Below, piece after piece: positions 1 to 15,930 of a DNA stretch of 64,000 nt (the first letter of the stretch is position 1; each line of letters opens with the position of its first letter). A program made the position numbers and the translations under genes. Source of the stretch: Myceligenerans salitolerans (GTDB lineage Bacteria > Actinomycetota > Actinomycetes > Actinomycetales > Cellulomonadaceae); the NCBI RefSeq assembly GCF_017349295.1, contig NZ_JAFMPK010000047.1:62001-126000 (forward strand), in the 5' to 3' direction. Under the pieces are notes generated by a model, which had not been told where the DNA came from, ran no database searches, and saw only the letters and a list, made by a program, of their open reading frames with translations.

Positions 1-646
1 GCACGGTGTAGGCGAAGTGGTGCAGGCGCGGGCCGCGGCCGTTGGTGAAGACGAGGTCGTGCGTGTTGCCCTTGACCTCCATCCAGGTGCCCCACAGCTC
101 GTCCGTGCCGTCCTTGGCGGTGTACTCGGACAGGCGCATGCCGAGACCCGCCCAGAAGTCGGTGGCGGTCTGCACGTCGTGGGTGGCGACCTGGTAGTGG
201 TCCAGGCGCTGGGGCGCGCCTGCCGTGAACTCGTGGAACGCGGCCATCCTGCGGGGCACCACCTCCATCGAGGAGGTGAGCTCGATGTGCGTGCCCACGC
301 CGTCGCGGAACCGCAGGGTGGGGCCCTGGTGGGGAACCTCGACGCGTTCGTGGTCGATGCCGCGGCCGGCGAAGTACCGCTCGGCGGCGGTGATGTCGTC
401 GTCGGTGCGCACGCGCAGCCCGATACGCAGTGCCCTGGCCTCCTCGGCGCGGTGCAGCACGAGGCTGTGGTGCGCCGACTCCTCGAGGCCGCGCAGGTGG
501 ACGACGTCGTCGGACTCGTCGGTGACGACCAGTCCGATGACGTCGCGGTAGAAGTCGCGGCTGGCCGCGAGGTCCGTGACGGACAGCGCGACGTGGCTGG
601 CGCGCGTGATCGTGAACGGCGGGGCGAAGTTCGTGGTGGGAAGCAT
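1..646 (-). CDS. extradiol (catechol 2,3-type) dioxygenase, 3' end cut by window edge
   Basis: The first 215 residues of a vicinal-oxygen-chelate extradiol dioxygenase are visible, starting at ATG (644-646, complement) with MLPTTNFAPPF. Two VOC modules follow: residues about 12-130, then a catalytic module beginning near RLDHYQVATHDV. The family's first two Fe/Mn ligands are visible as the His in RLDHYQV and the His in RLHHFAYTV. The third ligand (Glu) lies beyond the window. Homoprotocatechuate 2,3-dioxygenases (HpaD/HpcB type) look like this, but other catecholic substrates are possible. The gene is divergent from a LysR regulator, which probably controls it. It is the ring-cleavage step that gives the neighbouring FAH hydrolase and aldehyde dehydrogenase a pathway context. 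Confidence 0.85.
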   Translation of the reverse strand, partial: MLPTTNFAPPFTITRASHVALSVTDLAASRDFYRDVIGLVVTDESDDVVHLRGLEESAHHSLVLHRAEEARALRIGLRVRTDDDITAAERYFAGRGIDHERVEVPHQGPTLRFRDGVGTHIELTSSMEVVPRRMAAFHEFTAGAPQRLDHYQVATHDVQTATDFWAGLGMRLSEYTAKDGTDELWGTWMEVKGNTHDLVFTNGRGPRLHHFAYTV

Positions 647-710: not shown

Positions 711-793
711 CACCGTGGGCATCCTGGCGGAAGAACGGATGTCCACTGGTAGCCATACATGCGGTGTATACCGCTGTCACCGTGGGTATCCTG
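711..793. repeat. 15/16 direct repeat in dioxygenase-lysR intergenic region
   Basis: CACCGTGGGCATCCTG at 711-726 recurs as CACCGTGGGTATCCTG at 778-793. The copies start 67 bp apart and flank the LysR-box-like inverted repeat. The second copy contains TATCCT (787-792), a -10-like hexamer just before the lysR start. This could be a second regulator-binding element or a local duplication. Confidence 0.5.
755..769. promoter_or_regulatory. LysR-type box (T-N11-A inverted repeat)
   Basis: ATACA-N5-TGTAT is a perfect 5-bp inverted repeat with the T-N11-A spacing (T756, A768) typical of LysR-type regulators. It lies in the 152-bp gap between the divergent dioxygenase and lysR genes, close to the lysR start. 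It is therefore placed for regulator binding, autoregulation and activation of the dioxygenase. Binding is inferred, not shown. Confidence 0.6.
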
Positions 794-798
794 AGCGT

Positions 799-1707
799 AT
801 GGAGCTGCGGGAGCTGCGGTACTTCGCGGCGGTGGTCGAGGCCGGGTCGCTCACCGCCGCGGCCGAGCGGCTTCACCTGTCCCAGCCGCCGCTGAGCGTG
901 GCGGTCGCCAAGCTGGAGCGCGAGGTCGGCGTGCCGCTGCTGGTGCGTACGTCGCGCGGCGTCGAACCGACGAGCGCCGGGAGCTTCCTGCGTGACGCCG
1001 CCGCGCGAATCCTCGACGAGGTCGACGACGTGACCGCCGCTCTGCGGCGGTTCGGCGCCGGGGTCGCGGGGACGATCACGCTCGCGGCCGTCCCCGTGCT
1101 CATGTGGCACCGCGTGCCCGGGCTGCTGCGCGAGCATGCCGCCGAGGCGCCGAGCCTGGAGATCCGCCTCGTCGACCCGCCACCCTGGACGGCGATCGAC
1201 CTGCTCGCCCGCCGCCAGGTGGATCTCGCCGGCGTCGTGGTCGCCGACCACCGCCGGTTCGCTGCGCGCCACCGCCCCGCGTTCGACGTCGCCGACTGGG
1301 GCGAGGTCCCGCTCGTCGCGGTGCTGCCGCCGGACGGGTCCGATGCGCCGGACCCCTACCCGTTGCGCGCGTTCGACGGTGAACAGCTCGTCCTGCCGCG
1401 GCGGGCGAGCGCCGTGCCGAGCCTGCCCGAGGAGGTCGAGGCGGCGTTCCGGCGGCACGGGATCACGCCCGGCTCCGTGCGCACCGTGGAGACCATCCAG
1501 GCGGGGCTGCCGCTGATCGAGGCGGGGGTCGCCCGGGGGATCCTCCCGGACCCCGACCGGGCGAGCCTGGCACGGTTCGACGTCGTGGTGCGTCGCCTCG
1601 ATCCCGAGCCACGGCCGCTGCGGGCCCTCGTGCTCTCCCGGGCGGGCAGCGACGACCCCGGCGTACGGCGCGTGCTGGAACGGATCTCTGGGCACAGGGA
1701 CCGGTAA
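799..1707 (+). CDS. LysR-family transcriptional regulator
   Basis: A 302-residue protein of normal LysR length. The N-terminal winged HTH spans residues 1-60 (MELRELRYFAAVVEAGSLT, then the SQPPLSVAVAKLE recognition-helix region), followed by a periplasmic-binding-like effector domain (about 88-300). The ATG at 799 is preferred over in-frame codons upstream because the canonical LysR N-terminus begins there. No Shine-Dalgarno is visible, but TATCCT lies 6 nt upstream, so the mRNA may be leaderless. The gene is divergent from the extradiol dioxygenase and probably senses an aromatic inducer or pathway intermediate. The effector is unknown. Confidence 0.93.
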   Translation: MELRELRYFAAVVEAGSLTAAAERLHLSQPPLSVAVAKLEREVGVPLLVRTSRGVEPTSAGSFLRDAAARILDEVDDVTAALRRFGAGVAGTITLAAVPVLMWHRVPGLLREHAAEAPSLEIRLVDPPPWTAIDLLARRQVDLAGVVVADHRRFAARHRPAFDVADWGEVPLVAVLPPDGSDAPDPYPLRAFDGEQLVLPRRASAVPSLPEEVEAAFRRHGITPGSVRTVETIQAGLPLIEAGVARGILPDPDRASLARFDVVVRRLDPEPRPLRALVLSRAGSDDPGVRRVLERISGHRDR

Positions 1708-1791: not shown

Positions 1792-2460
1792 GTGGGGAAG
1801 AGCAAGGCGGACGAGGCCTACGAGATCCTGCGCAAGGGGATCATGGAAGGCGCCTTCGGGCCCGGCCACCGGCTGGTCATCGACCAGCTGGTGCGCGACT
1901 ACGGGATCAGCTCGGTGCCGTGGCGGGAGTCGTTGCGGCGGCTGGAGGCCGAGGGGTGGGTCGAGATCGTGCGCAACGCCGGGGCGGTCGTGAAGACGTT
2001 CGACACCAACGCCTGGGCGCGCACCATGCAGCTCCTGGCGCGTCTCGAGGGATACGCCACCGCGCTGTCCGCCCCGCATCTGAGCGCCGAGGACCTGGAA
2101 CGGGCGCGGGCGCTGAACAAGGAGATGAGCGAGGCGCTGGGCAGCTTCGACCCGGCGCGGTTCGGCGCGCTGAACCGGGAGTTCCACGAGCTGCTCTGCT
2201 CCGGCTGCGACGACGAGCGCCTGAGCACCCTGGTGGAGGCGGAGTGGACGCGCCTGGAGCTGATCCGCCGCTCCGCGTTCTGGTACGCGCCCGGCCGGGC
2301 GCAGGCCTCGATCGCGGAGCACGAGGGTCTCGTCGACCTCATCGAGGGCGGTGCCGCTCCGGACGTCATCGAGGCGGCGGCGCGTCGCCACGAGCTCAAC
2401 ACGGTCATCGCGATCGCCGCCGAGGAGGCGAGCGCGGCCGACGGGTCCACCGCGGGCTGA
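1792..2460 (+). CDS. GntR-family (FadR/FCD type) transcriptional regulator
   Basis: A 222-residue protein. The N-terminal winged HTH covers about residues 5-70 (EILRKGIMEGAFGPGHRLV, then SSVPWRESLRRLEAEGWV). An all-helical FCD ligand domain follows (about 80-210), with ARFGALNREFHELL and the His in ASIAEHEGLVDLIE as expected metal/ligand-pocket elements. The GTG start follows a good GGAG Shine-Dalgarno (GGACAGGAG). FCD regulators usually sense organic acids or sugar acids and repress adjacent catabolic operons, so this is a candidate repressor of the transporter/catabolic operons next door. An inverted repeat overlaps its own promoter. Confidence 0.92.
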   Translation: MGKSKADEAYEILRKGIMEGAFGPGHRLVIDQLVRDYGISSVPWRESLRRLEAEGWVEIVRNAGAVVKTFDTNAWARTMQLLARLEGYATALSAPHLSAEDLERARALNKEMSEALGSFDPARFGALNREFHELLCSGCDDERLSTLVEAEWTRLELIRRSAFWYAPGRAQASIAEHEGLVDLIEGGAAPDVIEAAARRHELNTVIAIAAEEASAADGSTAG

Positions 2461-2588: not shown

Positions 2589-3920
2589 TCAGCGGTGCGA
2601 GAGGTAGGCCTTGGCGTAGTCGTTGCCGTTCGGGTGGCGGAGCGTCGTGTGCACGTGGAAGCTCGCGGGGAGCTTGTTGGCCAGCCACACGCCCGCGTGG
2701 TGGTCGAGCTCGGCCAGGATCACGGGGCTGTGGACACGCAGGTAGAACGGCTCCGAACCGTCGGTGGCGCCGTACCAGGACAGGTACGTCTCCGCGCGGC
2801 GCGCCGCGAACTCACGCATCGTCCTCTCCCGCTGCGGTGCGGTGAGCAGCAGATGGAAGTCCTCCACGACGGCGCACAACGTGTCCCACTGGTCCGCGTC
2901 GAGCGCGTCCGCCCGCAGGCCCTCGTACGGGACCACCCGGTTGTCGCGGAACGCGCCCGCCACGTGCCGTTCGTCGGCGGGGTGCAACCGGTCCGGTGGC
3001 ATCTTCGGGTCGAGGACGGAGGAGTAGACGACGGCCGCGGCCCGCTGTGCGGCGTCGAGCGACGACGCCAGGCGCAGCGCCAGCGCCTGCCGCTCGGCGA
3101 ACACGGGGGGCCGCGCGCCGTCGGACAGCGCGGGTTCCGCCCCGAGGAAGACGGGCGCGACGACGTGGCGGCCGGCGACCGACACGAAGTTCACCGCGAC
3201 GTGGTGGCCGAACAGCTGCCACCCCCACGCCCCGCCCGGCTCAGGGTCTCCGAACAGGGAGAACCAGTAGCTGCGCGCGTTCATCAGCGCCGGCAGGCCC
3301 ACCAGCTCGCCGAGGAACGCGTTGAGCTCCATGGCCTCGGTGACGCGCGCGTAGCCCTCGGGGCTGAGGGACGCGGACACCACGGCGAGCACGGCACGGG
3401 CCGCGTCCTCCTCCAGGTCCTCCAGCCGCAGCCCGGCCTCGTGGATCACGAACTCGGGGTTGCTCCACGCGCGCCACTGGGGCGCGTGGAGCGGATACCG
3501 GAGCGCGGCGCGTTCGGCGTCCGTGAGCGTGGCGAGCAGCCGACCGGCTGCCTCCGCCGGCGCGGGGTCCGGGTCCGCGACGGGCGCCGGCGCCCACACC
3601 TCGTCGCGCACGACGCCGTCCGTCGTGATGCCGCGGAAGGGCTCCTCGTAGAGCCGCCGCCACTCGCCGAGCAGTTCCCGCACGAAGTCGGGAGAGCGTT
3701 TGCGGGCGGAGAACTCGCGGTATCCCAGTCCGCGCCATTCGGCGAGGATCGGGTCGTCGTGGTCGTACAGGTGCTCGCGGTAGCTCTCGCCGCCGAGCGT
3801 GACCGCCTCGGACCGGCTCGAGACCCGGGCCGTGGAGAAGAACCCGTCGAGGTCGTGGTCGTCGTGCGAGCCCTCGGCCGGGGGAGCGTCTCCCGAGGCG
3901 ACGTCGTCCGCGGTGGTCAT
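2589..3920 (-). CDS. DUF3500 domain-containing protein
   Basis: A 443-residue, probably cytoplasmic protein with no signal peptide. The C-terminal two thirds carry DUF3500 features: WQLFGHHVAVNFV, then VVAPVFLGAEPALS, and a late His-rich stretch (ILAELDHHAGVWL, SFHVHTTLRHPNGNDYAKAYL). The function of DUF3500 is not established; the conserved histidines suggest a metal or catalytic site. The ATG at 3918-3920 is chosen because it follows AGAGGG and starts after the upstream ATPase stop. It is the last gene of the amidohydrolase/ABC-transporter operon, which suggests it acts on the imported substrate. Confidence 0.75.
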   Translation of the reverse strand: MTTADDVASGDAPPAEGSHDDHDLDGFFSTARVSSRSEAVTLGGESYREHLYDHDDPILAEWRGLGYREFSARKRSPDFVRELLGEWRRLYEEPFRGITTDGVVRDEVWAPAPVADPDPAPAEAAGRLLATLTDAERAALRYPLHAPQWRAWSNPEFVIHEAGLRLEDLEEDAARAVLAVVSASLSPEGYARVTEAMELNAFLGELVGLPALMNARSYWFSLFGDPEPGGAWGWQLFGHHVAVNFVSVAGRHVVAPVFLGAEPALSDGARPPVFAERQALALRLASSLDAAQRAAAVVYSSVLDPKMPPDRLHPADERHVAGAFRDNRVVPYEGLRADALDADQWDTLCAVVEDFHLLLTAPQRERTMREFAARRAETYLSWYGATDGSEPFYLRVHSPVILAELDHHAGVWLANKLPASFHVHTTLRHPNGNDYAKAYLSHR

Positions 3921-3943: not shown

Positions 3944-4804
3944 TCACGCGGCGACGCCTCCGCGTGCCGCGATCCTGGCGGCCCGGCGGGACTCGCGCCC
4001 GGCCGGGTGCGGCGACAGGCTCGCCGCCAGCAGCTTCTTCGTGTACTCGTGGGAGGGGGCGTCCAGCACTCGCGACGTCGTACCCTGTTCCACCAGCTCG
4101 CCGGCCCGCAGCACGCCGACCTGATGGGCGATGTGCCGCACCACACCGAGATCGTGCGTGATGAAGAGGTAGCTCACCCCGGTCTCCGCCTGCCGGTCGC
4201 GCAGCAGGTCGAGGATCTGCGCCTGCGTCGACAGGTCGAGCGCGCTGACCGCCTCGTCGCACACGACCAGTCGCGGGGACAGCACGAGCGCCCGCGCGAT
4301 CGCGACCCGCTGCAGCTGGCCGCCCGACAGCTCGGAGGGTAGCCGGGTGAGATGCTCGGTACCGAGGCCCACCTGCTCGAACGCGGCCGCGGCACGACGG
4401 CGGCGCTCCGTGCGGTCGGTGACGCCGTGCCGGGCGAGCGCATCCGTGACGGCCTGTCCCACACGGTGGCGCGGGTTCAGCGACCCGACCGGGTCCTGGT
4501 AGACGGCCTGCACGGCCCCGCGGTAGGACAACGGCGCGGTACGCCCGAGGCCGACGATGTCGCTGCCGGCGAACGTGATCGTGCCGGCGGAGACGTCGGC
4601 CAGACGGAGGATCGCCCGTCCCGTGGTGCTCTTGCCCGAGCCGGACTCGCCGACGAGCCCGTAGGTCTCGCCGGGCGCGATCGTGAAGCTGATCCCGCGC
4701 ACGACCCGCAGCGCACGTCGCCGCCAGGCGAGGGCGCCGCCGACGTCGTAGTCCACGCACAGGTCCCGGACCTCCAGGAGAGGCGATGTCGTTGTCGCGT
4801 TCAC
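3944..4804 (-). CDS. peptide/nickel-type ABC transporter ATP-binding protein (DppF/OppF family)
   Basis: A 286-residue cytoplasmic ATPase. Walker A is GESGSGKST, the Q-loop is YQDPVGSLNP, the signature is LSGGQLQRV, Walker B is RLVVCDE and the switch His is in FITHDLGV. The C-terminal DAPSHEYTKKLLAA segment is typical of oligopeptide importer ATPases. The GTG start overlaps the stop of the upstream permease-ATPase gene (GTGA), giving translational coupling. It would pair with the ATPase half of the fused gene to form the heterodimeric NBD of the importer. The in-frame extension upstream to 4978 lies inside the neighbouring gene and was rejected. Confidence 0.92.
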   Translation of the reverse strand: MNATTTSPLLEVRDLCVDYDVGGALAWRRRALRVVRGISFTIAPGETYGLVGESGSGKSTTGRAILRLADVSAGTITFAGSDIVGLGRTAPLSYRGAVQAVYQDPVGSLNPRHRVGQAVTDALARHGVTDRTERRRRAAAAFEQVGLGTEHLTRLPSELSGGQLQRVAIARALVLSPRLVVCDEAVSALDLSTQAQILDLLRDRQAETGVSYLFITHDLGVVRHIAHQVGVLRAGELVEQGTTSRVLDAPSHEYTKKLLAASLSPHPAGRESRRAARIAARGGVAA

Positions 4805-6603
4805 GCGTGCTCCACCTTCCGCTGGTCGTGCGTGCCGAGGCCGGGGGCGTCGTCGTCCACGCCCGGGTGGGCGGCGATGAGCCGGGCCGTGTACTCGTGC
4901 CGGGGGTGGTCGAACACCGTGTGCACGTCGCCGGTCTCGACCACCTCGCCGCGGAGCAGCACGGTGACCCGGTCGCACGTCTCCGCGGCGACACCGAGGT
5001 CGTGGGTGATGTTGACGACCGCCATCCCGAGCCGGTCACGCAGGTCCAGAACCAGGTCGAGCACCTGGGCCTGGGTGGTGACGTCGAGGGCCGACGTCGC
5101 CTCGTCGAGGATGAGCAGATCCGGCTCGCCGACGAGTGCGACGGCGATCGCGACCCGTTGCGCCATCCCGCCCGAGAACTGGTAGGGGTACTGGTCCAGC
5201 CGGCGTTCGGGGTCGTCGACCCCGACCAGGTCGAGCAGGTCGGCGGCCCGGCTGCGGGCCGCCTCCTTCGAGATCGTGGCGTCGTGCGCCCGCACGACGT
5301 CGGTCAGCTGGCGGCCGACCGTGTGCACCGGGGACAGGTTCGCCTGCGGGTTCTGGAACACGACGCCCATGCCGGTACCACGCAGCGCGGCGAGCTGCGC
5401 CGGGGAGCGATCGGTGAGTTCGGTGCCGTTCAGCGTGATCGCGCCACCCGCCAGGCGGACGCCTGCGGGCAGGAGCCCGAGGATCGCCTTGGCCAGCATC
5501 GACTTGCCCGAGCCGGACTCGCCCAGCAGGCCGAGGATCTCGCCCCGCCGCACCGTGAGAGAGGCGTCGTGCACCAGCCGGACGACCCCGCCGTCGGGCC
5601 GGTCCGCGACGATGTCGGCGTGCCGTACGGCGAGCACCGGCTCGCCGGCGGAGTCCTCCACGCTTCCGGTGTCCGGTCCCACCGGTCCGTCGTCGGTGCC
5701 CGCCGAGGCCGGCGGGAGGGCCGCGTCGGCCGACCCGCTGCGCGCGCCGTCGCCGTCCAGGAGCACCCTGCCCAGGATCTTCGTCCGGCGCATCCGCGAA
5801 CCCGACAGCGTGTCGTTGATCGTGTCGCCCAGCAGGCTGAACGCCAGCACCGTCACGCAGATCGCGATGCCGGGCGCGAGGGCCATCTCGGGATGGTCGG
5901 CGGTGTGCTGCGTGGCGAACCCGAGCATGCCGCCCCACGACGGCTGCTCGTCGCCCAGGCCCAGGCCGAGGAACGACAGGGCCGCCTCCACCTTGATCGC
6001 CGAACCGAGGAACACCGCGGCCTGGACCACGAGCGGGCCCGCCAGGTTGGGCAGCACCTGGGAGAACAGGATCCGAGGCGCGTTCAGCCCGGAGACACGG
6101 GCCGACTCGACGTACCCCTTGTTGCGTTCGGTCAGGGTGATCGCTCGCGTCAGGCGCGCGAAGTTCATGCAGAACACGAGCCCGATCGCGAGGATCAGCA
6201 CCGCCATGCCCTGCCCCAGGATCGCGATGACGACGAACCCGATCATGAGGCCGGGCAGCGCGTCGGCGATGTCCAGGCCGCGCGAGCCGATCCGGTCGTA
6301 CCAGCCGCCCCGGTAGCCGAGCACGAGACCGAGGGGCACGCCGATCAGCATCGCGACCACCACCGACCCGACCGCCACGAGCAGTGCCGTGCGTGCCGCG
6401 TGGATCAGCTGGCTGAGCAGGTCCCCGCCCAGGTCGTCGGTGCCGAGCGGGTGTGCCGCCGTCGGACCGGACAGGGGAGCGGTGAAGTCCTTCGCCTCGG
6501 GGGCGTAGGGAGCGATCAGCGGCGCCGCGATCGCCACCACGACGACGACCGTGACGACGACGACGGCGAAGAGCGCCGTGGGCTGTCGGAGGGCGGTTCT
6601 CAC
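4801..6603 (-). CDS. fused ABC permease (DppC-like) and ATP-binding protein (DppD-like)
   Basis: A 600-residue fusion. Residues 1-280 are a DppC/OppC-like permease: TM near 10-30, the PLGTDDLGGDLLSQLIHAAR motif, several TM helices, and the EAA-type loop in YVESARVSGLN. A flexible acidic/Ala-Gly linker (about 285-322) leads to an ATPase: Walker A GESGSGKS at 361-368, signature FSGGM at 476-480, Walker B LLILDE at 496-501, switch His 534. The two activities are usually separate genes; similar fusions occur in Actinobacteria. GTGA overlaps at both ends couple it to the upstream permease and downstream ATPase genes. There is no frameshift, so the reading frame supports a genuine fusion. Confidence 0.92.
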   Translation of the reverse strand: MRTALRQPTALFAVVVVTVVVVVAIAAPLIAPYAPEAKDFTAPLSGPTAAHPLGTDDLGGDLLSQLIHAARTALLVAVGSVVVAMLIGVPLGLVLGYRGGWYDRIGSRGLDIADALPGLMIGFVVIAILGQGMAVLILAIGLVFCMNFARLTRAITLTERNKGYVESARVSGLNAPRILFSQVLPNLAGPLVVQAAVFLGSAIKVEAALSFLGLGLGDEQPSWGGMLGFATQHTADHPEMALAPGIAICVTVLAFSLLGDTINDTLSGSRMRRTKILGRVLLDGDGARSGSADAALPPASAGTDDGPVGPDTGSVEDSAGEPVLAVRHADIVADRPDGGVVRLVHDASLTVRRGEILGLLGESGSGKSMLAKAILGLLPAGVRLAGGAITLNGTELTDRSPAQLAALRGTGMGVVFQNPQANLSPVHTVGRQLTDVVRAHDATISKEAARSRAADLLDLVGVDDPERRLDQYPYQFSGGMAQRVAIAVALVGEPDLLILDEATSALDVTTQAQVLDLVLDLRDRLGMAVVNITHDLGVAAETCDRVTVLLRGEVVETGDVHTVFDHPRHEYTARLIAAHPGVDDDAPGLGTHDQRKVEHA

Positions 6604-7544
6604 TGGGGCCTCGCTTGCGGGTTGATCAGGCCGTAGCAGATGTCGAGGACCAGGTTCACGGCGATGACCAGCACGGCCGTGACCATGACGACGCCCTGCA
6701 CGACGGGGAAGTCCTGCGCGATGACGCTGGAGAGCATGATGGAGCCGAGCCCCGGGAGGGAGAACACCTTCTCCACCACGAAGCTCACCCCGATGAGGAT
6801 GGCGAGCGTGACGCCCGCCGACGCCAGCACGGGCACGAGCGCGTTCTTCACGCCGTAGCGCGCCACGATCGTGGCGCGCGGTACGCCGGCAGCGGTGAGG
6901 GTGTCCGTGTAGGGCGCGGCCAGCGAGGCCACGACGGCGGCACGTGTCTGTCGCGCGATCATCGCCCCGCCCGTCACACCGAGCGTGATCGAGGGCAGCG
7001 CGATCCCGCGCGCCCAGCCGAGCGGGTCGTCCGTCAGCGGCGTCCACGCGACGATCGGGACCCAGCCGAGCTGCACCGCGAACAGCGTGGTCAGCAGCAG
7101 CCCGAGCCAGAACTCCGGGACGGCCAGACCGAGCACGGTGCCGCCGGTGACGACCCGGTCGCCCGGAGTGCCCGGGCGGGTGCCGGTCCACACGCCGGCA
7201 CCCACCCCCAGCACGAGGGCCACGAGCATCCCGCCCGCCACGACCGACAAGGTCGCGGGCACGTGCCGTGCCAGCAGTTCCGCGACCGGCACGCCCGAAC
7301 GGAAGGACGTCCCGAGGTCGCCGGTCAGCAGCCCGCCGATCCACTCCGCGAACCGCTCCGGCGCCGGCCGGTCCAGGCCCATCTGCGCCTCGACCTGCGC
7401 GATGCTCTCGGGCGTGGCCGCCGCGCCGAGCATGGCCGCCGCGGGACTGCCCGGCACCAGATAGGTCAGCGAGAACACCACGACGGCGATGACCAGCAGC
7501 TGCGGCACGGCGAACAGCAGCCGGTAGGCGATGAGCTTGCCCAT
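6600..7544 (-). CDS. peptide/nickel-type ABC transporter permease (DppB/OppB family)
   Basis: A 314-residue inner-membrane permease with about six TM helices. The N-terminal MGKLIAYRLLFAVPQLLVIA helix is typical of DppB. A periplasmic loop (PESIAQVEAQMGLDRPAPER, GDLGTSFRSGVPV) follows, and the EAA loop appears as YTDTLTAAGVPRATIVARYG. The C-terminus ends in the VLDICYGLINPQARP stretch seen in this family. It lies 16 nt after the binding-protein gene and overlaps the next gene by GTGA. With the fused DppC-like domain it forms the transmembrane channel. Confidence 0.93.
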   Translation of the reverse strand: MGKLIAYRLLFAVPQLLVIAVVVFSLTYLVPGSPAAAMLGAAATPESIAQVEAQMGLDRPAPERFAEWIGGLLTGDLGTSFRSGVPVAELLARHVPATLSVVAGGMLVALVLGVGAGVWTGTRPGTPGDRVVTGGTVLGLAVPEFWLGLLLTTLFAVQLGWVPIVAWTPLTDDPLGWARGIALPSITLGVTGGAMIARQTRAAVVASLAAPYTDTLTAAGVPRATIVARYGVKNALVPVLASAGVTLAILIGVSFVVEKVFSLPGLGSIMLSSVIAQDFPVVQGVVMVTAVLVIAVNLVLDICYGLINPQARPQ

Positions 7545-7560
7545 GTGCGGTGGCCTCTCG

Positions 7561-9102
7561 TCAGCTCGCGGGACGCAGCGCGCGGTAGTCGACCGACGTC
7601 GTCTCCCACGGCTCGACGGGCGGGGCCACGCCGGTCACGGTGTCGGTGTTCCAGGCGATCAGCTCTTCACCGGCCACGTGCGCGCAGGTGAGGGCCTCCT
7701 CGGAGATGATCCGCGTGACCTCGGCCCACAAGCCGTCGGCCTCGGGAGACGTGCCCGCGGCGATCGCGGCGTCGGCGGCCGCGGCGAGCTCCTCGCTCTC
7801 CACGCCGGAAGGGTTCCCCGGCGCGTCCGCGGCGAACCACGCCTGGTACCAGTCGTACGGGGTCAGCTCGTCGTTGCCGCCCAGCCCGATCGGGTACCGG
7901 CCGCTCGCCCACTCGGAGAAGAACTGCGGCGGCGGCGCCGTCTGCACGGTGATGTTCATGCCGATCTCGCCCACCTGCTCGGCGTACACCTGCATCTGCC
8001 GCTCGTTGAAGAACGTCGCGAGCATCTCCACGTCGACCGCCGGGTTCCCGGCCTCGTCGTACAGCCGCTGCGCCTCGGCCAGGTCGTGCGGGTACCCGGT
8101 GATGTCCGGGTTGTAGCCCTGCTCGCCCTCGGCGAAGTGCTGCGTGCGCACCTCCCAGTCCGTCTCCACGGACGCGAGGGTCTCGGTGTCGATCGCCAGG
8201 CAGGCCGCCCGGCGCACGTCGACGTCCTCGAACACTCCGCCCGGGCCCCGGTCGAAGAAGATCGGGTTGTTGCGGATCGCCGGGTACGACAGGTGGTCGG
8301 TGTTGCCGGCCGACTCCAGCGTCGTGAACTCCGTGGACTCGGTGTCGGTGAGGTCGATCTCCCCGCTCACCAGCGCGGCGGTCGCGGCGGTGTCCTCCTC
8401 GATGGCCACGATCTGGATGCTCTCGAAGCCCGGCGCCTCACCCCAGTAGTCCGTGTTCGGTCCGAACACCATGCGCGTGCCGGTGACCGAGGCCTCCTCG
8501 TCGTAGGCCCAGGGGCCGGTGCCGACCGGCGCGGAGGTCACCGTTCCCGCCGCGATCGCGGCGGGGCTGGCCATCGGGGCGGCCCGGGTGGACAGCGTGG
8601 TCAGCAGCGACGGCGTCGGCTCGGACAGATTGAAGGTCACCGTGTGCTCGTCCGTCACGTCGATCGAGTCGATCACCTGGAACGGTCCGGCGTACGGACC
8701 GGGCGTGTCCTTGACCGTCTCGATGTTCGTCCTGACGGCCTCGGCGTCGAACGGCGTGCCGTCATGGAAGGTGACGCCCTCGCGCAGGGTCAGGGTCAGG
8801 GCCTCGTCGGTGAGCTCCCAGTCGGTGGCGAGCACCGGCTGGATCTCGCCGTCGACGAGCGCCACCAGGTTCTCGTAGGGAACCCGCATGCTGCCGGCCT
8901 CCATGTCGGCGCCCGGGGCCCAGCTCTCCGGGAAGCCGCCCCAGTTGACCCGCAGAACGGAGCCGGGCACGGTGCCCGAGCCGGTGTCACCCGTGGCGGC
9001 GGTGCCGCCTCCGTCGTCGGTGCTGTCGGCCGAGCAGGCGCTCAGGGCGAGGGCCAGGGTCGCCGCGACGGCGAGTGGCGTGAGAGGTGTTGTCTTCGTC
9101 AT
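7561..9102 (-). CDS. ABC transporter substrate-binding lipoprotein (SBP family 5)
   Basis: A 513-residue extracytoplasmic lipoprotein. The signal peptide MTKTTPLTPLAVAATLALA ends in the lipobox LSAC (Cys near residue 23), followed by an Asp/Gly-rich linker. The family-5 binding-protein body includes YENLVALVDGEIQPVLATDWEL, TLREGVTFHDGTPFDAEAV and RNNPIFFDRGPG. Family 5 carries peptides, but also nickel, opines, sugars and aromatic conjugates, so the substrate cannot be read from sequence. AAGGAGG precedes the ATG. The gene sits between the amidohydrolase gene and the permease genes, in one operon. Confidence 0.93.
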   Translation of the reverse strand: MTKTTPLTPLAVAATLALALSACSADSTDDGGGTAATGDTGSGTVPGSVLRVNWGGFPESWAPGADMEAGSMRVPYENLVALVDGEIQPVLATDWELTDEALTLTLREGVTFHDGTPFDAEAVRTNIETVKDTPGPYAGPFQVIDSIDVTDEHTVTFNLSEPTPSLLTTLSTRAAPMASPAAIAAGTVTSAPVGTGPWAYDEEASVTGTRMVFGPNTDYWGEAPGFESIQIVAIEEDTAATAALVSGEIDLTDTESTEFTTLESAGNTDHLSYPAIRNNPIFFDRGPGGVFEDVDVRRAACLAIDTETLASVETDWEVRTQHFAEGEQGYNPDITGYPHDLAEAQRLYDEAGNPAVDVEMLATFFNERQMQVYAEQVGEIGMNITVQTAPPPQFFSEWASGRYPIGLGGNDELTPYDWYQAWFAADAPGNPSGVESEELAAAADAAIAAGTSPEADGLWAEVTRIISEEALTCAHVAGEELIAWNTDTVTGVAPPVEPWETTSVDYRALRPAS

Positions 9103-9198: not shown

Positions 9199-10248
9199 TC
9201 AGACGGGGAGGTTGAACAGGCGCTTGGCGTTGCCCGACAGCACCGCCGCGCGGTCCGCGTCGCTGATCTCCAGGTCGTTCGTCACGAAGTCGACGCCCTG
9301 GCTCATCCAGCCGCGGAAGACGGGGAACGAGGAGCCGAACAGGTAGTGGTCGGCGCCGCTGATCTTCAGGGCGGCCTCGACCTGGTGCTTGCCCCAGGAG
9401 TGCGGGTGGGTGAGGTCGAAGAAGATGTTGTTCTCGAGGTAGCCGCGGATCTTGTCGCCGCCGGTGGCGTCAAGACGGTTCAGCGACTCCTTCCTGGTCG
9501 ACGCGTGCGGGGTCAGCAGGTCGGCGTTGGCGAACCAGTTCCCGCCGAGCATCGTGTGGATGAAGCGCAGGTCCGCGAACTCGTCGAACATGCCGCTGAA
9601 CAGCTCGCGGCCCACCGCCGTGGCCTGGTCGACGATGCGGCCGAACTCGCGGCGCAGGTTGGTGTAGTCGATGATCGAGCGCCACTCCACGGGCAGCGGG
9701 GTGTGGTGCACGATGACGGGTAGGCCCTTGTCGTTGAGCACCTTGAGGTACGGCTTGAAGACGTCGTCGTCGAGGTAGAGCTGGCCGTAGTGGCACGCGA
9801 GCTGCACGCCGACGACGCCGAGCTCGTCGATGCAGCGCTCGAGCTCGTAGATGTTCTCCTTGCCGCCCCACGGCGGCACGCACGCGGTCGAGAAGAGCCT
9901 TCCACCGGACTTCTTCACGATCTCGGCGGCGTTGTCGTTCACGGCCCTGCAGGTCTCCAGGTCCAGCCACTCCTGCCAGACGGGTACGCGCATGATGCCG
10001 TAGTCGACGCCGGCGTCGTCCATCGCGGCGAGCTTGGCCTCGCACGAGTAGTCGCCGTCGACGTAGTTGAGGTTCTGGTAGCCCTTCGGCTTCTCGAGGA
10101 TGAGCTGCGGCTTGCCGTCGTCGGCCGTGCCGACCGAGGCGATCTCGCCGAAGCCGCGCGGAGCGCTGTTCAGGAAGCCGTTCAGGATCTTCTCGTTCGA
10201 GAACAGGTCCTCGGGCAGGTGATGGATGTTGATGTCGACGACGGTCAT
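9199..10248 (-). CDS. amidohydrolase-2 (ACMSD-like) family protein with altered metal site
   Basis: A 349-residue TIM-barrel protein of the amidohydrolase_2 group, which includes ACMSD-type decarboxylases and hydrolases. Conserved elements are the N-terminal strand VVDINIHHLP, IVHHTPLP (H181/H182), FIHTMLGGNWF (H231) and the C-terminal LFGSSFPV. Active relatives usually have HxH (or ExH) at the first position and GTD/GSD at the last. Here those positions are N7-x-H9 and S307, so two usual metal ligands are missing. It may bind metal differently or act as a non-catalytic or specialised protein. It is the first gene of the minus-strand importer operon and divergent from the dienelactone hydrolase operon. 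Confidence 0.8.
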   Translation of the reverse strand: MTVVDINIHHLPEDLFSNEKILNGFLNSAPRGFGEIASVGTADDGKPQLILEKPKGYQNLNYVDGDYSCEAKLAAMDDAGVDYGIMRVPVWQEWLDLETCRAVNDNAAEIVKKSGGRLFSTACVPPWGGKENIYELERCIDELGVVGVQLACHYGQLYLDDDVFKPYLKVLNDKGLPVIVHHTPLPVEWRSIIDYTNLRREFGRIVDQATAVGRELFSGMFDEFADLRFIHTMLGGNWFANADLLTPHASTRKESLNRLDATGGDKIRGYLENNIFFDLTHPHSWGKHQVEAALKISGADHYLFGSSFPVFRGWMSQGVDFVTNDLEISDADRAAVLSGNAKRLFNLPV

Positions 10249-10449: not shown

Positions 10450-10479
10450 TTGAAATCGTGTAGAAAATGCTTCTACGAT
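10450..10479 (+). promoter_or_regulatory. promoter with internal inverted repeat before DLH operon
   Basis: TTGAAA (10450-10455) and TACGAT (10474-10479) are spaced 18 bp and make a plausible sigma-70-type promoter. Between them sits the perfect inverted repeat TAGAA-AATGC-TTCTA (10461-10475), extending imperfectly with TCG/CGA on each side. A repressor bound there would block the plus operon. The rest of the 268-bp gap to the divergent amidohydrolase gene is AT-richer than the surrounding genes and presumably holds that gene's promoter too. Confidence 0.55.
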
Positions 10480-10516
10480 GCCGCCACGACATCGGCGTCG
10501 GACGGAAGGTTCACCG

Positions 10517-11278
10517 ATGAACAAGCTGCTCACCTCCGCGGAGCACGACGTGCGAGTGCGCGACGTCGAGTACACGCACGACGGCACACGCATGCGGGGT
10601 GCTGTCGTCGCGGCTCCCGGTACCCGGGGCGCGCCGGGCGTCCTCCTGGTGCACGACGCGTTCGGTCCGGGCGAGGACATGCTGGCGATCGCGCGCAGGC
10701 TCGCGGCGCTCGGACGGCCCGTGTTCTGCGCCGACATCTGGGGCGCGCGCACCCGGCCGCGAACCATGGCCGAGATCGGGCCTCTGATCGGTGGCATGGT
10801 CGCGGACCGTGCCCGCTGGATCGCCCGCGTGTCGGCCGCCCACGAGGCCGCCGGCGCGCAGCCGGAGCTCGACGGCGGGTGCCTCGTCGCGCTCGGCTAC
10901 TGCTTCGGCGGTTCCTCGGCGCTGGAGTACCTGCGTGGCGGAGGCCGGCTGGCCGGCGTCGTCGGCGTCCACGCCGGGCTGGACCTGCTGGACCCCGGCG
11001 CGGACTGGAGTGCCGCTCACCCCGGCGCGAGCGTGCTGCTGTGCACGGGCGCGGACGACCCCATGGCCACCGCCGCCCAGCGCGACGCGCTGCAGAACGC
11101 GCTGACGGGCGCCGGCATCGACTGGGAGACCGACGTCTACGGCGGCACGGTGCACGCCTTCACGAGCCCCCGGGCGCGGAACTCGCCGGATCCCCGCGTG
11201 ATCGCCCACCACCCGCGCAGCGCCGCACGTGCGTGGGACGCCACGACCCGGTTCCTGCGCGAGACGCTGCCCGCCTGA
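10517..11278 (+). CDS. dienelactone hydrolase family protein
   Basis: A 253-residue alpha/beta hydrolase. The nucleophile elbow is GYCFGGS (Cys nucleophile, as in dienelactone hydrolases). The acid is in CTGADDPMAT and the catalytic His in YGGTVHAFTSP. The ATG at 10517 is chosen because GGAAGG (10504-10509) sits 7 nt before it. Dienelactone hydrolases open enol-lactones in aromatic catabolism; the true substrate here is unknown. It is the first gene of the seven-gene plus-strand operon and has an operator-like promoter. Confidence 0.88.
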   Translation: MNKLLTSAEHDVRVRDVEYTHDGTRMRGAVVAAPGTRGAPGVLLVHDAFGPGEDMLAIARRLAALGRPVFCADIWGARTRPRTMAEIGPLIGGMVADRARWIARVSAAHEAAGAQPELDGGCLVALGYCFGGSSALEYLRGGGRLAGVVGVHAGLDLLDPGADWSAAHPGASVLLCTGADDPMATAAQRDALQNALTGAGIDWETDVYGGTVHAFTSPRARNSPDPRVIAHHPRSAARAWDATTRFLRETLPA

Positions 11279-11327: not shown

Positions 11328-12605
11328 ATGCTCGACATCGCCATCGCCGGAGCAGGCCCCGGAGGCCTGCTCACCGCTCTCCGCCTGCATCAGGCGGGCT
11401 TCCGGCCGACGATCTACGAGACCGTCGCCGAGCTGAGACCGCTCGGCGTCGGCGTGGACATCAAGACCGTCGGAACCGCCGAGCTCGACGAGCTCGGTCT
11501 CCTGGAGCAGTTCCGGGAGATCTCCGTGGAGGCCGAGGACTCCGTCTTCTACAACCATCACGGCCAGGAGATCTACGCGGAGAAGTGCGGTGTCCACATG
11601 GGCTACCTGCACGAACAGCGGTTCGTGCACCGGGGCGTCCTGCAGATGATGCTGTACCGCACCGTCCTGGACCGGCTGGGGTCCGGCGCGGTGCGGCTGG
11701 GCGTCCGGGTCACCGGTTACGCCCAGGACGCGGACCACGTCACGCTCGACCTGGAGCACACGGACGGTCGCACCGAGCAGGTGCGGCACGAGGCCCTGAT
11801 CGCGGCCGACGGCATCAAGTCGGCCGTGCGGCGGCAGATGCACCCCGCGCTGACCGAGCCCGAGTTCTCCGGGATCACCATGTGGCGCGGGACCACGCTG
11901 CGCGAGCCGTTCCGCGGCGGGCACACGATCCTGCACCTCGGCAACCCGCACGTCGCCTCGATGATCGTGTACCCCATCGCGGAGAACTTCGAGAACAGCG
12001 GGCTCGACCTCATCAACTGGGTCGTCGAGACCAACGGCGAGGAGACGATCGAGGACTGGAACCAGGTCGCCGACCCGGAGGACGTCGTCGGCCTCTTCGA
12101 CACGCTCAAACTGCCGTTCCTCGACGTGCAGGAGCTGATCCGGGACGCCCGGGAGGTGTACCTCTTCCCGCTGGTCCGGCACTTCCCCCTGGACACCTGG
12201 GTGGACGGGCGTGTCGCCCTGCTCGGTGACGCGGCCCACGCCATGTACCCGCGTGGCGGCAACGGCATCACGCAGGCGATGCTCGACGCGCGCGCGATCA
12301 CGGCGCGGCTGGCCGAGCACGGCTCCGACGCGGCGGCAGCCCTCGCCGCCTACGACAAGGACCGCCGCGAGATCGTCAACCGCATCGTGGACAGCATGCG
12401 CGGCGAAGGGTACGAGGTGATCCGCCGGATGGTCGCCGACCGCACGGGCGGGGAACCGTTCGACGACATCGAGAAGGTTCTGCCGCTGGCCGAGGCCGAC
12501 GAGATCTTCAGCGGCTACCACGCGCTGGTCGGCGCTCCGCGCCCCGGTCACGCCGCCGGTGACGCGACCGGCTTCCGCACGTGGGAGCAGGAGGCGGGCG
12601 CATGA
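11328..12605 (+). CDS. FAD-dependent aromatic-type monooxygenase
   Basis: A 425-residue group A flavoprotein monooxygenase. It has the N-terminal Rossmann fingerprint IAGAGPGG, the DG motif in LIAADGIKSAVR and the GD motif in LLGDAAHAMYPRGGNGITQAM, in the usual order and spacing. Relatives hydroxylate phenolic acids such as salicylate or 3-hydroxybenzoate, so this is a candidate ring-hydroxylating or hydroxylating step. It starts 49 nt after the DLH-like gene, with a GAGGAA Shine-Dalgarno. Its stop overlaps a short 26-codon ORF. The substrate is not predictable from sequence. Confidence 0.9.
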   Translation: MLDIAIAGAGPGGLLTALRLHQAGFRPTIYETVAELRPLGVGVDIKTVGTAELDELGLLEQFREISVEAEDSVFYNHHGQEIYAEKCGVHMGYLHEQRFVHRGVLQMMLYRTVLDRLGSGAVRLGVRVTGYAQDADHVTLDLEHTDGRTEQVRHEALIAADGIKSAVRRQMHPALTEPEFSGITMWRGTTLREPFRGGHTILHLGNPHVASMIVYPIAENFENSGLDLINWVVETNGEETIEDWNQVADPEDVVGLFDTLKLPFLDVQELIRDAREVYLFPLVRHFPLDTWVDGRVALLGDAAHAMYPRGGNGITQAMLDARAITARLAEHGSDAAAALAAYDKDRREIVNRIVDSMRGEGYEVIRRMVADRTGGEPFDDIEKVLPLAEADEIFSGYHALVGAPRPGHAAGDATGFRTWEQEAGA

Positions 12606-12682
12606 GCACGACGAGCGCCGTCCGGCGCGCACGTGGCACCCGCGCGCCCGTCCGGGACCAGGCACGGGGAGACCTCGCATGA
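12602..12682 (+). CDS. 26-residue ORF bridging monooxygenase and SnoaL genes
   Basis: An ATG at 12602 overlaps the monooxygenase stop (ATGA), and the ORF's own TGA (12680-12682) overlaps the ATG of the SnoaL-like gene (ATGA). A consensus AGGAGG (12589-12594) lies 7 nt before the start. The product would be MSTTSAVRRARGTRAPVRDQ plus six residues, arginine-rich, with no recognisable domain. Its perfect fit between two stop/start overlaps suggests that ribosomes run across the gap and that it couples translation. It might be a translational bridge rather than a functional peptide. Confidence 0.5.
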   Translation: MSTTSAVRRARGTRAPVRDQARGDLA

Positions 12683-13143
12683 GCGCGGTCGCCGGTGCGG
12701 ACGAGACCGTCCGTGCAGAGATCCTCGCGGTCGAGGCCGAGCGTCACCGCGCCCTGGTCGACGTCGACGTCGCCGCGCTCGACGCGATCCTCGACGACTC
12801 GCTCGTGCACGTGCACGCCCCCGGCCTGGTGCACACCAAGGCGCAGTTCCTGGAGCACGTCGAGACCCGTCGCGCGTTCCTGCGGATCGAGCGCGGCGAG
12901 CTGAACATCCGCGTGGTGGACGACGTCGCCGTCGTGGTCGGGCCGATCACGAACCACATGCGCACGCCGGACGGCGGGGAGCGCACCCAGGAGGGCGTCG
13001 TCACGCAGGTCCTCGTCCGGTCCGGCAGGTCCGGCGACGTCCCCGGCTGGCGGTTCATCAGCTTCCAGCTGACCCCGTACGGCGAACAGATCTGGGGGAA
13101 GCTGCCCTCCGAACAGCCCGAGGAGAAGGAACAGGCACGATGA
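12679..13143 (+). CDS. SnoaL-like / nuclear transport factor 2-like protein (DUF4440 type)
   Basis: A 154-residue protein predicted to form the cone-shaped alpha+beta NTF2 fold. The long N-terminal helix includes EILAVEAERHRALVDVDVAAL. It continues with LDDSLVHVHAPGLVHTKAQFLEHV and the later strands VVVGPITNHM and GWRFISFQLTPYG. Family members act as isomerases, cyclases, hydratases or small binding proteins; no catalytic set can be assigned with confidence. The ATG at 12679 follows GGGGAGA and sits in ATGA overlaps with the short upstream ORF and with the FAH gene downstream. Confidence 0.78.
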   Translation: MSAVAGADETVRAEILAVEAERHRALVDVDVAALDAILDDSLVHVHAPGLVHTKAQFLEHVETRRAFLRIERGELNIRVVDDVAVVVGPITNHMRTPDGGERTQEGVVTQVLVRSGRSGDVPGWRFISFQLTPYGEQIWGKLPSEQPEEKEQAR

Positions 13144-13994
13144 AGATCGCACGATTCCGCGTGGGCGACGGGCCGGTACGGCTCGGCAGGGTCGACGGCG
13201 AGACCGTCACCGACATCAGTGAGGCGGCCGGGACGACGTCGGCCCGCGTGCTGCTGCCGCGCCTCGGCGAGCTGAACGTCGCACTGGCCGCCGCCACGGG
13301 CCCCGGCCACCCGCTGAGCGACGTGACGCTCCTGGCACCGGTCGACTACCCGCAGAAGTATCTCGGCATCGGGATGAACTACGCCGCACACGCCGAGGAG
13401 GCCCGCAGAGCCGGCATCCCGATCCCGGACAACCAGATGTGGTTCAACAAGCAGACGTCCTGCATCGTCGGCCCCTACGACGACGTCGTGAAGCCGGCGA
13501 TCTCGGACGAGCTGGACTACGAGATCGAGCTCGCCGTCGTCATCGGGACCGAGTGCAAGCACGTGTCCCGCGCGGACGCACGGTCCGTCATCGCCGGTTA
13601 CATGGTGGCCGACGACGTGTCGGTACGGGACTGGCTCGCCAAGCGTTCGCCCACGTTCACGCTCGGCAAGTCGTTCGACACGCACGGGCCGCTCGGTCCC
13701 TGGCTCACGACCGACGACGAGATCGAGGACCCGCACGACCTGCGCATGACCCTCACCGTGAACGGCGAGGTGCGCCAGGACTGGCGCACCGACGACATGA
13801 TCCACGACATCTACGACCAGATCGCGTACCTCACCCAGGTCATGACCCTCGTCCCGGGAGACATCCTCGCCACCGGCACGCCGTCGGGCATCGGGGCGCC
13901 GACCGGGAACTTCCTGAAGGCGGGCGACGTGGTGCGCGCGCAGATCGGACCGCTCGGCGCGATCGAGAACCGGATCGTCGAGGAGCGCCGGTGA
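13140..13994 (+). CDS. fumarylacetoacetate hydrolase (FAH) family protein
   Basis: A 284-residue protein with a short N-terminal domain (about 1-70) and the FAH catalytic fold. KYLGIGMNYAAHAEEA opens the core. Metal ligands are visible in LDYEIELAVVIG (Glu pair) and in the VADDVSVRD region (Asp). The family ends in QVMTLVPGDILATGTPSGIG. FAH enzymes in meta-cleavage pathways isomerise or decarboxylate 2-hydroxyhepta-2,4-diene-1,7-dioate-type intermediates, consistent with the extradiol dioxygenase at the window's left end. It overlaps its neighbours by ATGA and GTGA. Confidence 0.92.
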   Translation: MKIARFRVGDGPVRLGRVDGETVTDISEAAGTTSARVLLPRLGELNVALAAATGPGHPLSDVTLLAPVDYPQKYLGIGMNYAAHAEEARRAGIPIPDNQMWFNKQTSCIVGPYDDVVKPAISDELDYEIELAVVIGTECKHVSRADARSVIAGYMVADDVSVRDWLAKRSPTFTLGKSFDTHGPLGPWLTTDDEIEDPHDLRMTLTVNGEVRQDWRTDDMIHDIYDQIAYLTQVMTLVPGDILATGTPSGIGAPTGNFLKAGDVVRAQIGPLGAIENRIVEERR

Positions 13995-14461
13995 GCGGCG
14001 ACCGACAAGATCGGCGGACCTCCGTCGAGATCCGCGGGTTCGCGCACCGGAACCCCGTGCCGGCAGGCAGCCGCATCGGCCCTTTTCTCGCCTCGGGAAC
14101 GCTGACCGGGCGAGACCCGGCCACCGGTGAGATCCCCGAGACCCTCGACGAGCAGGCCGCCAACATGTTCGGCCACGTCCGCGAACTGCTCTTGGCCGCG
14201 GGAGGCGGTACCGACGATATCCTGACCATGACGGTCCGCCTTGCCGGATACCGTGACCGCGCCGCCCTCAACGCGCAGTGGGAGAAGATGTTCCCCGACC
14301 CGCGGACCCGCCCCGCGCGCCACGTCGTGACCGCCTCCCTCGACCGCGGTCAGCTGATCCAGTGCGACCTCCTGGCCGTGCTGCCTCCCGACGACGCCAC
14401 GCCCGTGGACGGCGGGCCCGGTCCGCACACCCGCGAGACGAAGGAGTCCGAGCAACCATGA
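13991..14461 (+). CDS. RidA/YjgF/YER057c/UK114 family protein
   Basis: A 156-residue protein. The chorismate-mutase-like trimeric RidA fold is suggested by SRIGPFLASGTLTGRDPATGE, EQAANMFGHVRELLLAAGG and DILTMTVRLAGYRDRAALNAQW. The C-terminal core TRPARHVVTASLDRGQLIQC contains the usual active-site Arg position. RidA proteins hydrolyse reactive enamine/imine intermediates, while pathway-specific members can be deaminases or hydrolases. The GTG start overlaps the FAH stop, and its stop overlaps the dehydrogenase ATG. The roughly 20-residue C-terminal tail is extra compared with short RidA proteins. Confidence 0.88.
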   Translation: MSGDRQDRRTSVEIRGFAHRNPVPAGSRIGPFLASGTLTGRDPATGEIPETLDEQAANMFGHVRELLLAAGGGTDDILTMTVRLAGYRDRAALNAQWEKMFPDPRTRPARHVVTASLDRGQLIQCDLLAVLPPDDATPVDGGPGPHTRETKESEQP

Positions 14462-15930
14462 CCGACCCCCGCGAGACCCAGCTCCTGGCCGCCGTCCCCG
14501 ACGGTCTCTTCATCGGCGGCGCCTGGCGCCCGGCCCGTGACGGCGCCACCTTCGCCGTCCACGACCCCGCCACCGGCGACGTGATCAAGGAGATCGCCTC
14601 CGCCGGCGTCGACGACGGCGCCGCCGCGATCGACGCCGCGGTCGCCGCCGCCGACGACTGGGCCGCCACCCCCGCGCGCGCCCGCGGCGAGATCCTGCGC
14701 CGCGCGTTCGACCTGCTCATGGAACGCAAGGAGGACGTCGCGCTCCTCATGACCCTCGAGATGGGCAAGCCGCTGGCCGAGTCCCGCGGCGAGGTCGCCT
14801 ACGGCGGCGAGTTCCTCCGCTGGTTCTCCGAGGAGGCACCGCGCATCGCCGGCCGCTACGGCGCCAACCCCGAGGGCACCGGGCGCATGATCGTGACCCA
14901 GCACCCCGTGGGGCCGTGCTTCCTCATCACCCCGTGGAACTTCCCGCTGGCCATGGCCACCCGCAAGATCGCGCCGGCGCTCGCGGCCGGCTGCACCGTG
15001 GTGATCAAGCCGGCCGCACTCACCCCGCTGACCACGGTGTTCTTCGCGAAGATCCTGGAGGACGCGGGTCTGCCCGCGGGCGTCGTGAACGTGGTGACCA
15101 CGACCAACACCGGCCCGGTCTCCGAGCGGATCATCCGCGACCCGCGCCTGCGGAAGCTGTCGTTCACCGGCTCCACCCCGGTCGGGCGGAAACTGCTGGA
15201 GCAGGCCGCCGGGGGAGTGCTGCGCACCTCGATGGAACTGGGCGGCAACGCACCGTTCGTCGTGTTCGACGACGCCGACCTGGACAAGGCGGTCGAGGGC
15301 GCGCTCGCGGCGAAGTTCCGCAACATCGGCCAGGCGTGCACGGCGGCCAACCGGTTCCTCGTGCACCGGTCGGTCGCGGACGAGTTCGCCGAGCGGGTGA
15401 CCGAGCGGGTCGCGGAGTTCCGGATGGGGCGCGGCACCGAGGACGGCGTGACCATCGGGCCGCTCATCGACGACGACGCGGTCGCGAAGTCGTCGTCCCT
15501 GGTGCGGGACGCGGTGGACCGGGGTGCGACACTGCGGCTGGGCGGTTCGCCCGCGGAGGGCACGGGGTCGTTCTTCCCCGCGACGGTGGTGACCGACGTG
15601 CGGCCCGGCAGCGAGATCCTGCGTGAGGAGATCTTCGGCCCGGTGCTCGCCGTCGTCCCGTTCGACACCGAGGACGACGCCGTGCGCCTGGCCAACGACA
15701 CGGAGTACGGGCTGGTCTCCTACGTGTACACGCGGGACCTGGCACGCGGCCAGCGCATGATCGAGCGGCTGGCCACGGGGATGATGGGGCTGAACATGGG
15801 CGTCATCTCCAACGCGGCGGCACCGTTCGGCGGCTGGAAGGCGAGCGGGCTGGGCCGCGAGGGCGGTGCGGAGGGGATCCACGAGTACCTCCAGACGAAG
15901 TACACGCTGACGCCGGACCCGTTCGCCTGA
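14458..15930 (+). CDS. NAD(P)-dependent aldehyde dehydrogenase, succinate-semialdehyde type
   Basis: A 490-residue ALDH of full family length. It has the oxyanion Asn in ITPWNFPLAM, the general-base Glu in MELGGNAPFVVF and the catalytic Cys in NIGQACTAANRF, plus the C-terminal PFGGWKASGLGREGG. The motif pattern is closest to succinate-semialdehyde dehydrogenases (GabD-like). Succinate semialdehyde is the end product of homoprotocatechuate-type meta cleavage, so it could complete such a pathway; a carboxymethyl-hydroxymuconic semialdehyde dehydrogenase is the alternative. It is the last gene of the plus operon and is followed by a strong hairpin. Confidence 0.92.
   Translation: MTDPRETQLLAAVPDGLFIGGAWRPARDGATFAVHDPATGDVIKEIASAGVDDGAAAIDAAVAAADDWAATPARARGEILRRAFDLLMERKEDVALLMTLEMGKPLAESRGEVAYGGEFLRWFSEEAPRIAGRYGANPEGTGRMIVTQHPVGPCFLITPWNFPLAMATRKIAPALAAGCTVVIKPAALTPLTTVFFAKILEDAGLPAGVVNVVTTTNTGPVSERIIRDPRLRKLSFTGSTPVGRKLLEQAAGGVLRTSMELGGNAPFVVFDDADLDKAVEGALAAKFRNIGQACTAANRFLVHRSVADEFAERVTERVAEFRMGRGTEDGVTIGPLIDDDAVAKSSSLVRDAVDRGATLRLGGSPAEGTGSFFPATVVTDVRPGSEILREEIFGPVLAVVPFDTEDDAVRLANDTEYGLVSYVYTRDLARGQRMIERLATGMMGLNMGVISNAAAPFGGWKASGLGREGGAEGIHEYLQTKYTLTPDPFA

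Follow-up and report, generated by a model that had tools for sequence, protein, structure and literature searches.

The 64,000-nucleotide stretch of DNA analyzed here (the window) carries a gene for a protein of the PF04909 (Amidohydro_2) family, which is located upstream of the genes for an oligopeptide/nickel-type ABC transporter and a DUF3500 protein and has the same orientation as these genes (Table 1). Divergent from the PF04909 gene are genes for a dienelactone hydrolase, an FAD-dependent monooxygenase, a DUF4440 protein, a fumarylacetoacetate hydrolase (FAH) family protein, a RidA-family protein, and an aldehyde dehydrogenase. The only solved relative of the DUF3500 protein by sequence is 9x86 ("Amc20"), and a literature search on the name Amc20 returned unrelated papers only. 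To the left of the window (G000:C42; L139:10022-12761) are the rest of the extradiol dioxygenase gene and genes for an RraA-like aldolase and an MhpD/HpaH-like hydratase, the latter two having been recognized by eye and by their similarity to conserved neighbor clusters. Because these genes lie beyond the left edge, the catabolic cluster exceeds the window and has two possible ring-cleaving proteins.

Table 1. Genes of the catabolic cluster within the window and functionally relevant codons of the PF04909 gene.
Feature	Position	Strand	Basis
HpaD-like extradiol dioxygenase gene, part (cut by left edge of window)	1..625	-	
LysR-type regulator	715..1707	+	sequence reading
GntR-type regulator, conserved neighbor	1792..2460	+	sequence reading
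DUF3500 protein, start approximate	2589..3914	-	PF12006, 293.9 bits
Oligopeptide/nickel-type ABC transporter genes	3944..9102	-	Pfam and ORF list
ABC permease	6600-7544	-	within 3944..9102
ABC solute-binding protein	7561-9102	-	within 3944..9102
Further permease and ATPases of ABC transporter	within 3944..9102	-	ORF list
Non-canonical ACMSD-like PF04909 protein, 349 aa	9199..10248	-	ORF, Pfam, and structure model
Codon 307, Ser replacing metal-binding, proton-donating Asp	9328..9330	-	alignment
Codon 244, Leu at conserved Arg position	9517..9519	-	alignment
Codons 231-233, His-Thr-Met	9550..9558	-	alignment
Codons 181-182, His-His	9703..9708	-	alignment and conservation
Codons 7-9, Asn7-Ile8-His9, beta-1 motif NxH replacing HxH/ExH	10222..10230	-	alignment
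Dienelactone hydrolase family protein	10478..11278	+	Pfam
FAD-dependent aromatic monooxygenase (PF01494)	11328..12605	+	best PDB relatives 2rgj/3c96
DUF4440/SnoaL-like protein	12679..13143	+	Pfam
FAH family protein	13143..13994	+	domain search
RidA-family protein, start approximate	13940..14461	+	Pfam
Aldehyde dehydrogenase	14458..15930	+	domain searches

The PF04909 gene is an intact open reading frame, and its translation reads MTVVDINIHHLPED...VIVHHTPLP...LRFIHTMLGGNW...LFGSSFPV. The protein scores 92.2 bits against PF04909 (gathering cutoff 26.4), and an NCBIfam search matched no model and thus gave no name. Its best sequence relatives in the PDB are the 5-carboxyvanillate decarboxylases LigW2 and LigW and gamma-resorcylate (2,6-dihydroxybenzoate) decarboxylase, with E values of about 1e-11 for a single-sequence query and of 1e-20 to 1e-26 for a profile. 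An AlphaFold (AF2) model (pLDDT 87.6) predicts that the PF04909 barrel fold is kept. This model matches family structures with Z scores of 31-33, the top match being isoorotate (uracil-5-carboxylate) decarboxylase (Z 32.7), and LigW and ACMSD (Z about 32) are also among the matches. The C-C hydrolase LigY and the hydratase LigJ resemble the model as well (Z about 28), and so the PF04909 fold supports C-C hydrolysis and hydration, but these two proteins are more distant than the ACMSD-type relatives and were compared by fold. The closest characterized relatives are mostly decarboxylases, not hydrolases, and LigW, LigW2, and gamma-resorcylate decarboxylase share with the window protein both the fold and a phenolic pathway context.

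ACMSD is 2-amino-3-carboxymuconate-6-semialdehyde decarboxylase. It uses H9, H11, H177, D294, H228, and R239 of its partner subunit, and it needs both H228 and R239 (PMC11650718). In o-benzoate decarboxylases, the Asp binds the metal and also acts as the proton donor (PMC7894528). The corresponding positions of the window protein were decided by an alignment of 13 members of its clade with LigW, LigW2, gamma-resorcylate decarboxylase, and approximately 28 canonical PF04909 proteins. N7 occupies the place of the first metal-binding residue of the beta-1 HxH/ExH (DxHxH) motif, which is His in ACMSD, His12 in isoorotate decarboxylase, and Glu in gamma-resorcylate decarboxylase, LigW, and LigW2. 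S307 occupies the position of the Asp of the GSD/GTD motif (D294 in ACMSD, Asp323 in isoorotate decarboxylase). A sequence-only reading of this DNA had proposed precisely these two replacements, and both are borne out by the alignment and by their presence in 74 of 74 sequences in the conservation set described below. In likeness to ACMSD, the second beta-1 His (H9) and the canonical beta-5 metal His (H181) are kept.

The same reading regarded H181, H182, and H231 as retained family residues, and for H181 this is correct. In contrast, H182 is a clade-specific addition that is not conserved in the wider family and is found in every clade member examined, and H231 is located two residues before the beta-6 His position, where relatives are mostly hydrophobic. 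The canonical beta-6 catalytic His (ACMSD H228; the His of the GHMGE and AHxG motifs) aligns with Met233. L127, the closest canonical relative, shows no gaps in this region of the alignment (LVMPHLGGAFF in L127 versus FIHTMLGGNWF), and this settles the beta-6 register. Furthermore, LigW, LigW2, gamma-resorcylate decarboxylase, and L127 share an Arg located 11 residues beyond the beta-6 His. The clade has Leu (58 sequences) or Met (16 sequences) at this position, 244, which was matched to ACMSD R239 on the basis of the spacing between H228 and R239. As judged from the alignment, the clade has fixed replacements at four functional positions, which are those of the first His/Glu ligand, the beta-6 catalytic His, the metal-binding Asp, and the Arg that binds the carboxylate. 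The metal site therefore appears even more strongly altered than had originally been claimed.

The conservation set includes the window protein and 73 homologs, down to ~46% identity, from Actinomycetota, Clostridia, Enterobacterales, Alphaproteobacteria, and Dehalococcoidia. N7, H9, H181, H182, H231, and S307 are invariant in all 74 sequences, and the 72 loci for which codons were read all have M233. By comparison, H10, which had been put forward as a possible shifted ligand, is Trp in 16 of the 74 sequences (and Phe in one further relative) and is therefore unlikely to be a replacement ligand. S307 is encoded by TCN as well as AGC codons among the homologs. More than 70 residues are invariant, many of them polar, and synonymous codon differences exceed nonsynonymous ones. 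Given these invariant residues and the mostly synonymous drift, it is reasonable to propose that the protein is an active enzyme. Two other explanations for the residue changes were rejected: chance or sequencing error, because the same changes occur in independent genomes, and a decaying gene, because of the same invariant residues and synonymous excess.

One of the six patterns used to collect homologs spans N7, which is a possible source of bias. Searches conducted without N7-spanning patterns gave the same overall picture and added divergent members. In a maximum-likelihood tree, the non-canonical proteins form one clade (UFBoot 100, stem length 0.60), whose sister is the canonical protein L127 (support 99). 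The clade is rare and patchy, being found in 7 of 396 genomes at E <= 1e-20 (five of these with >= 59% identity), and wider profile searches of two other phyla matched just 1 genome out of 398 in one phylum and 3 out of 251 in the other, with L127 among the latter three. A literature search found no publication on this clade and no biochemical data for any member. Among the divergent members, H9 is replaced by Tyr, Met, or Asp and H181 by Arg. For example, the Enterococcus raffinosus member has Tyr at position 9, a member from genome G977 has M9, Y231, H233, and C307, and the paralogs of genome G397 include one with C7, D9, R181, and L233. Across this wider clade no canonical ligand position is universal, whereas H182 is always kept.

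These patterns bear on whether a metal site might have been rebuilt from other residues. In such a site, a divalent metal would be held by H9, H181, and the displaced H231, possibly with the help of H182 or N7, and the protein would catalyze a decarboxylation or C-C hydrolysis of a familiar kind within the same pathway. The invariance of H9, H181, H182, and H231 in the 74-sequence set is consistent with this arrangement, and the nearest characterized relatives are metal-dependent decarboxylases. Moreover, three protein ligands alone suffice in LigW, salicylate decarboxylase, and 2,3-DHB decarboxylase (PMC7894528). However, the divergent members have lost H9 or H181, the proton-donor Asp of all listed relatives is Ser in the window protein, and the carboxylate-binding Arg is gone. 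We consider a rebuilt metal site somewhat unlikely.

The loss of several catalytic positions could also be understood if the protein were a non-catalytic binding or partner subunit, forming one half of an amidohydrolase heterodimer, and the heteromeric amidohydrolase-fold enzyme AibH1H2 is among the fold matches of the model. However, the window protein is the only PF04909 protein in its own genome at E <= 1e-15, and it therefore has no obvious paralogous partner. In addition, the newly acquired polar residues are invariant across phyla and the gene is nearly alone in some anaerobes, and a role of this kind seems very improbable.

Gene linkage was counted over 66 long loci, of which 52 are actinobacterial and 12 are proteobacterial. 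DUF3500 is linked in 61 of the 66 (51/52 actinobacterial and 10/12 proteobacterial), which is an association that the sequence-only reading had suggested seeking among homologs that carry N7 and S307. The FAD monooxygenase is linked in 49/52 actinobacterial and 12/12 proteobacterial loci, FAH in 44/52 and 12/12, and the extradiol dioxygenase in 22/52 and 11/12. Because just 24 of the 148 genomes from the class contain DUF3500, its linkage is far from chance, with the reservation that loci from the same genus are not independent.

In Aspergillus, a DUF3500 protein is the proposed opener of the 1,2,3,5-tetrahydroxybenzene ring (PMC12388069), and this proposed function has been put forward in fungi only. 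A 2026 publication describes the pathway as one that seems to be confined to fungi (PMC13094099). As in the fungal pathway, whose DUF3500 ring opener is AN10530, the DUF3500, FAD monooxygenase, and dienelactone hydrolase genes occur together here. The clusters described herein differ in that they are bacterial and also carry the PF04909 amidohydrolase and often an extradiol dioxygenase. Another fungal enzyme for comparison is the decarboxylating gallate 1-monooxygenase PhyA; the linked PF01494 monooxygenase is known by its best PDB match, 2rgj/3c96. Bacterial DUF3500 proteins in aromatic clusters may represent the bacterial side of the supposedly fungal-only 1,2,3,5-tetrahydroxybenzene pathway.

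In anaerobes, the neighbors are Mo enzymes that resemble pyrogallol-phloroglucinol transhydroxylase. At locus L072, the clade gene precedes genes for homologs of the large (872 bits) and small (206 bits) subunits of pyrogallol hydroxytransferase. Related large subunits are present at L062 and L130 (417 and 380 bits), L055 has a partial match, and a Mo oxidoreductase adjoins the gene at L083. The Chloroflexota operon at L130 (L130:532-9935) encodes pyrogallol hydroxytransferase-like subunits, a thiolase, a CoA-transferase, an Amidohydro_1 protein, and the clade member, and its thiolase and CoA-transferase genes are reminiscent of the Clostridium scatologenes phloroglucinol cluster (PMC10470551). 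The clade member of this operon retains the canonical beta-6 His, and it is possibly an evolutionary intermediate.

Clade members thus adjoin homologs of genes from the anaerobic tannin/phloroglucinol route, which involves pyrogallol hydroxytransferase and phloretin/DAPG hydrolase. Indeed, one G397 paralog (L128:7949-9879) overlaps by 4 bases with a gene for a PhlG/DAPG-hydrolase domain. This divergent paralog has lost N7, H9, and H181, and its genome, from a Lachnospiraceae species, carries three paralogs of the clade. We know of no step in the anaerobic tannin/phloroglucinol route that has been assigned to a PF04909 protein, and the ring opener of the phloroglucinol route, DPGC, belongs to the "cyclase" family.

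We tentatively favor the explanation that the window protein is an active, non-canonical PF04909 enzyme of the ACMSD/benzoate-decarboxylase branch, which participates in polyhydroxybenzene catabolism by using His-based acid-base chemistry without a classical divalent metal. In place of the classical site, with its mononuclear metal and proton donor, the enzyme would have N7, H9, H181, H182, H231, and S307, together with M233 and L244, and the textbook metal/Asp mechanism is probably unable to operate in such a site. The substrate likely belongs to the phloroglucinol, pyrogallol, or 1,2,3,5-tetrahydroxybenzene type, and it might react as the readily formed keto tautomer of the polyhydroxylated ring. 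Acid-base catalysis by His could then cleave the C-C bond between the ring and a substituent, releasing an acyl or carboxyl group, or could tautomerize the ring, and any statement on the exact reaction is a guess. It had been suggested earlier that hydrolysis was lost in favor of another role in the operon, and the protein probably does have another role of this kind.

One specific alternative is that the protein decarboxylates 2,4,6-trihydroxybenzoate (phloroglucinol carboxylate) or gallate, in which case the resulting phloroglucinol or pyrogallol would enter the monooxygenase/DUF3500 route in aerobes and the transhydroxylase route in anaerobes. Strongly activated rings lose a carboxyl group easily, and gamma-resorcylate decarboxylase, which is among the best relatives, acts on a substrate that is one hydroxyl group removed from 2,4,6-trihydroxybenzoate. 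Furthermore, the gene of the anaerobe locus L049 forms a two-gene unit with a MarR-like regulator, which fits a one-step conversion. However, the protein lacks both the Asp that donates the proton and the Arg that binds the carboxylate, and we judge a decarboxylase of this type to be quite unlikely.

If the metal-free explanation is extended to the entire clade, then an ACMSD-fold lineage without the amidohydrolase metal site might catalyze a metal-free step on phloroglucinol/tetrahydroxybenzene-type rings that is common to aerobes and anaerobes. In aerobes this step would be coupled with the DUF3500 ring opener in a bacterial counterpart of the supposedly fungal pathway, and in anaerobes with pyrogallol transhydroxylase. 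We offer this extension with considerable doubt. Among enzymes of this fold, the metal-dependent decarboxylases have been studied in depth and serve as biocatalysts, and their Asp holds the metal and donates the proton. The existence of an intact clade across distant bacteria without the usual site makes it directly testable how the fold works in its absence. The clusters appear to break down plant polyphenols, and thus unfamiliar chemistry is suggested for this fixed, ancient active-site loss. Likewise, the gene linkage provides an experimental handle on the bacterial degradation of plant polyphenols of the phloroglucinol/pyrogallol type, including a possible bacterial tetrahydroxybenzene route.

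Some clade members are found in other contexts. At L084, the adjoining gene is HpaB/4-hydroxybutyryl-CoA dehydratase-like. On Enterococcus raffinosus megaplasmids (L081:15049-17474), the clade member with Tyr in place of H9 is followed by genes for two ceramidase-like proteins and a beta-glucoside PTS gene. Because these contexts differ, the clade as a whole may not act on a single substrate class. Transport genes also vary among loci L002-L074, with an oligopeptide-type ABC transporter (as in the window), a ribose-type ABC transporter, or an MFS transporter accompanying a constant set of catabolic genes. The Enterobacterales loci within this group carry an MFS transporter and an outer-membrane porin-like protein.
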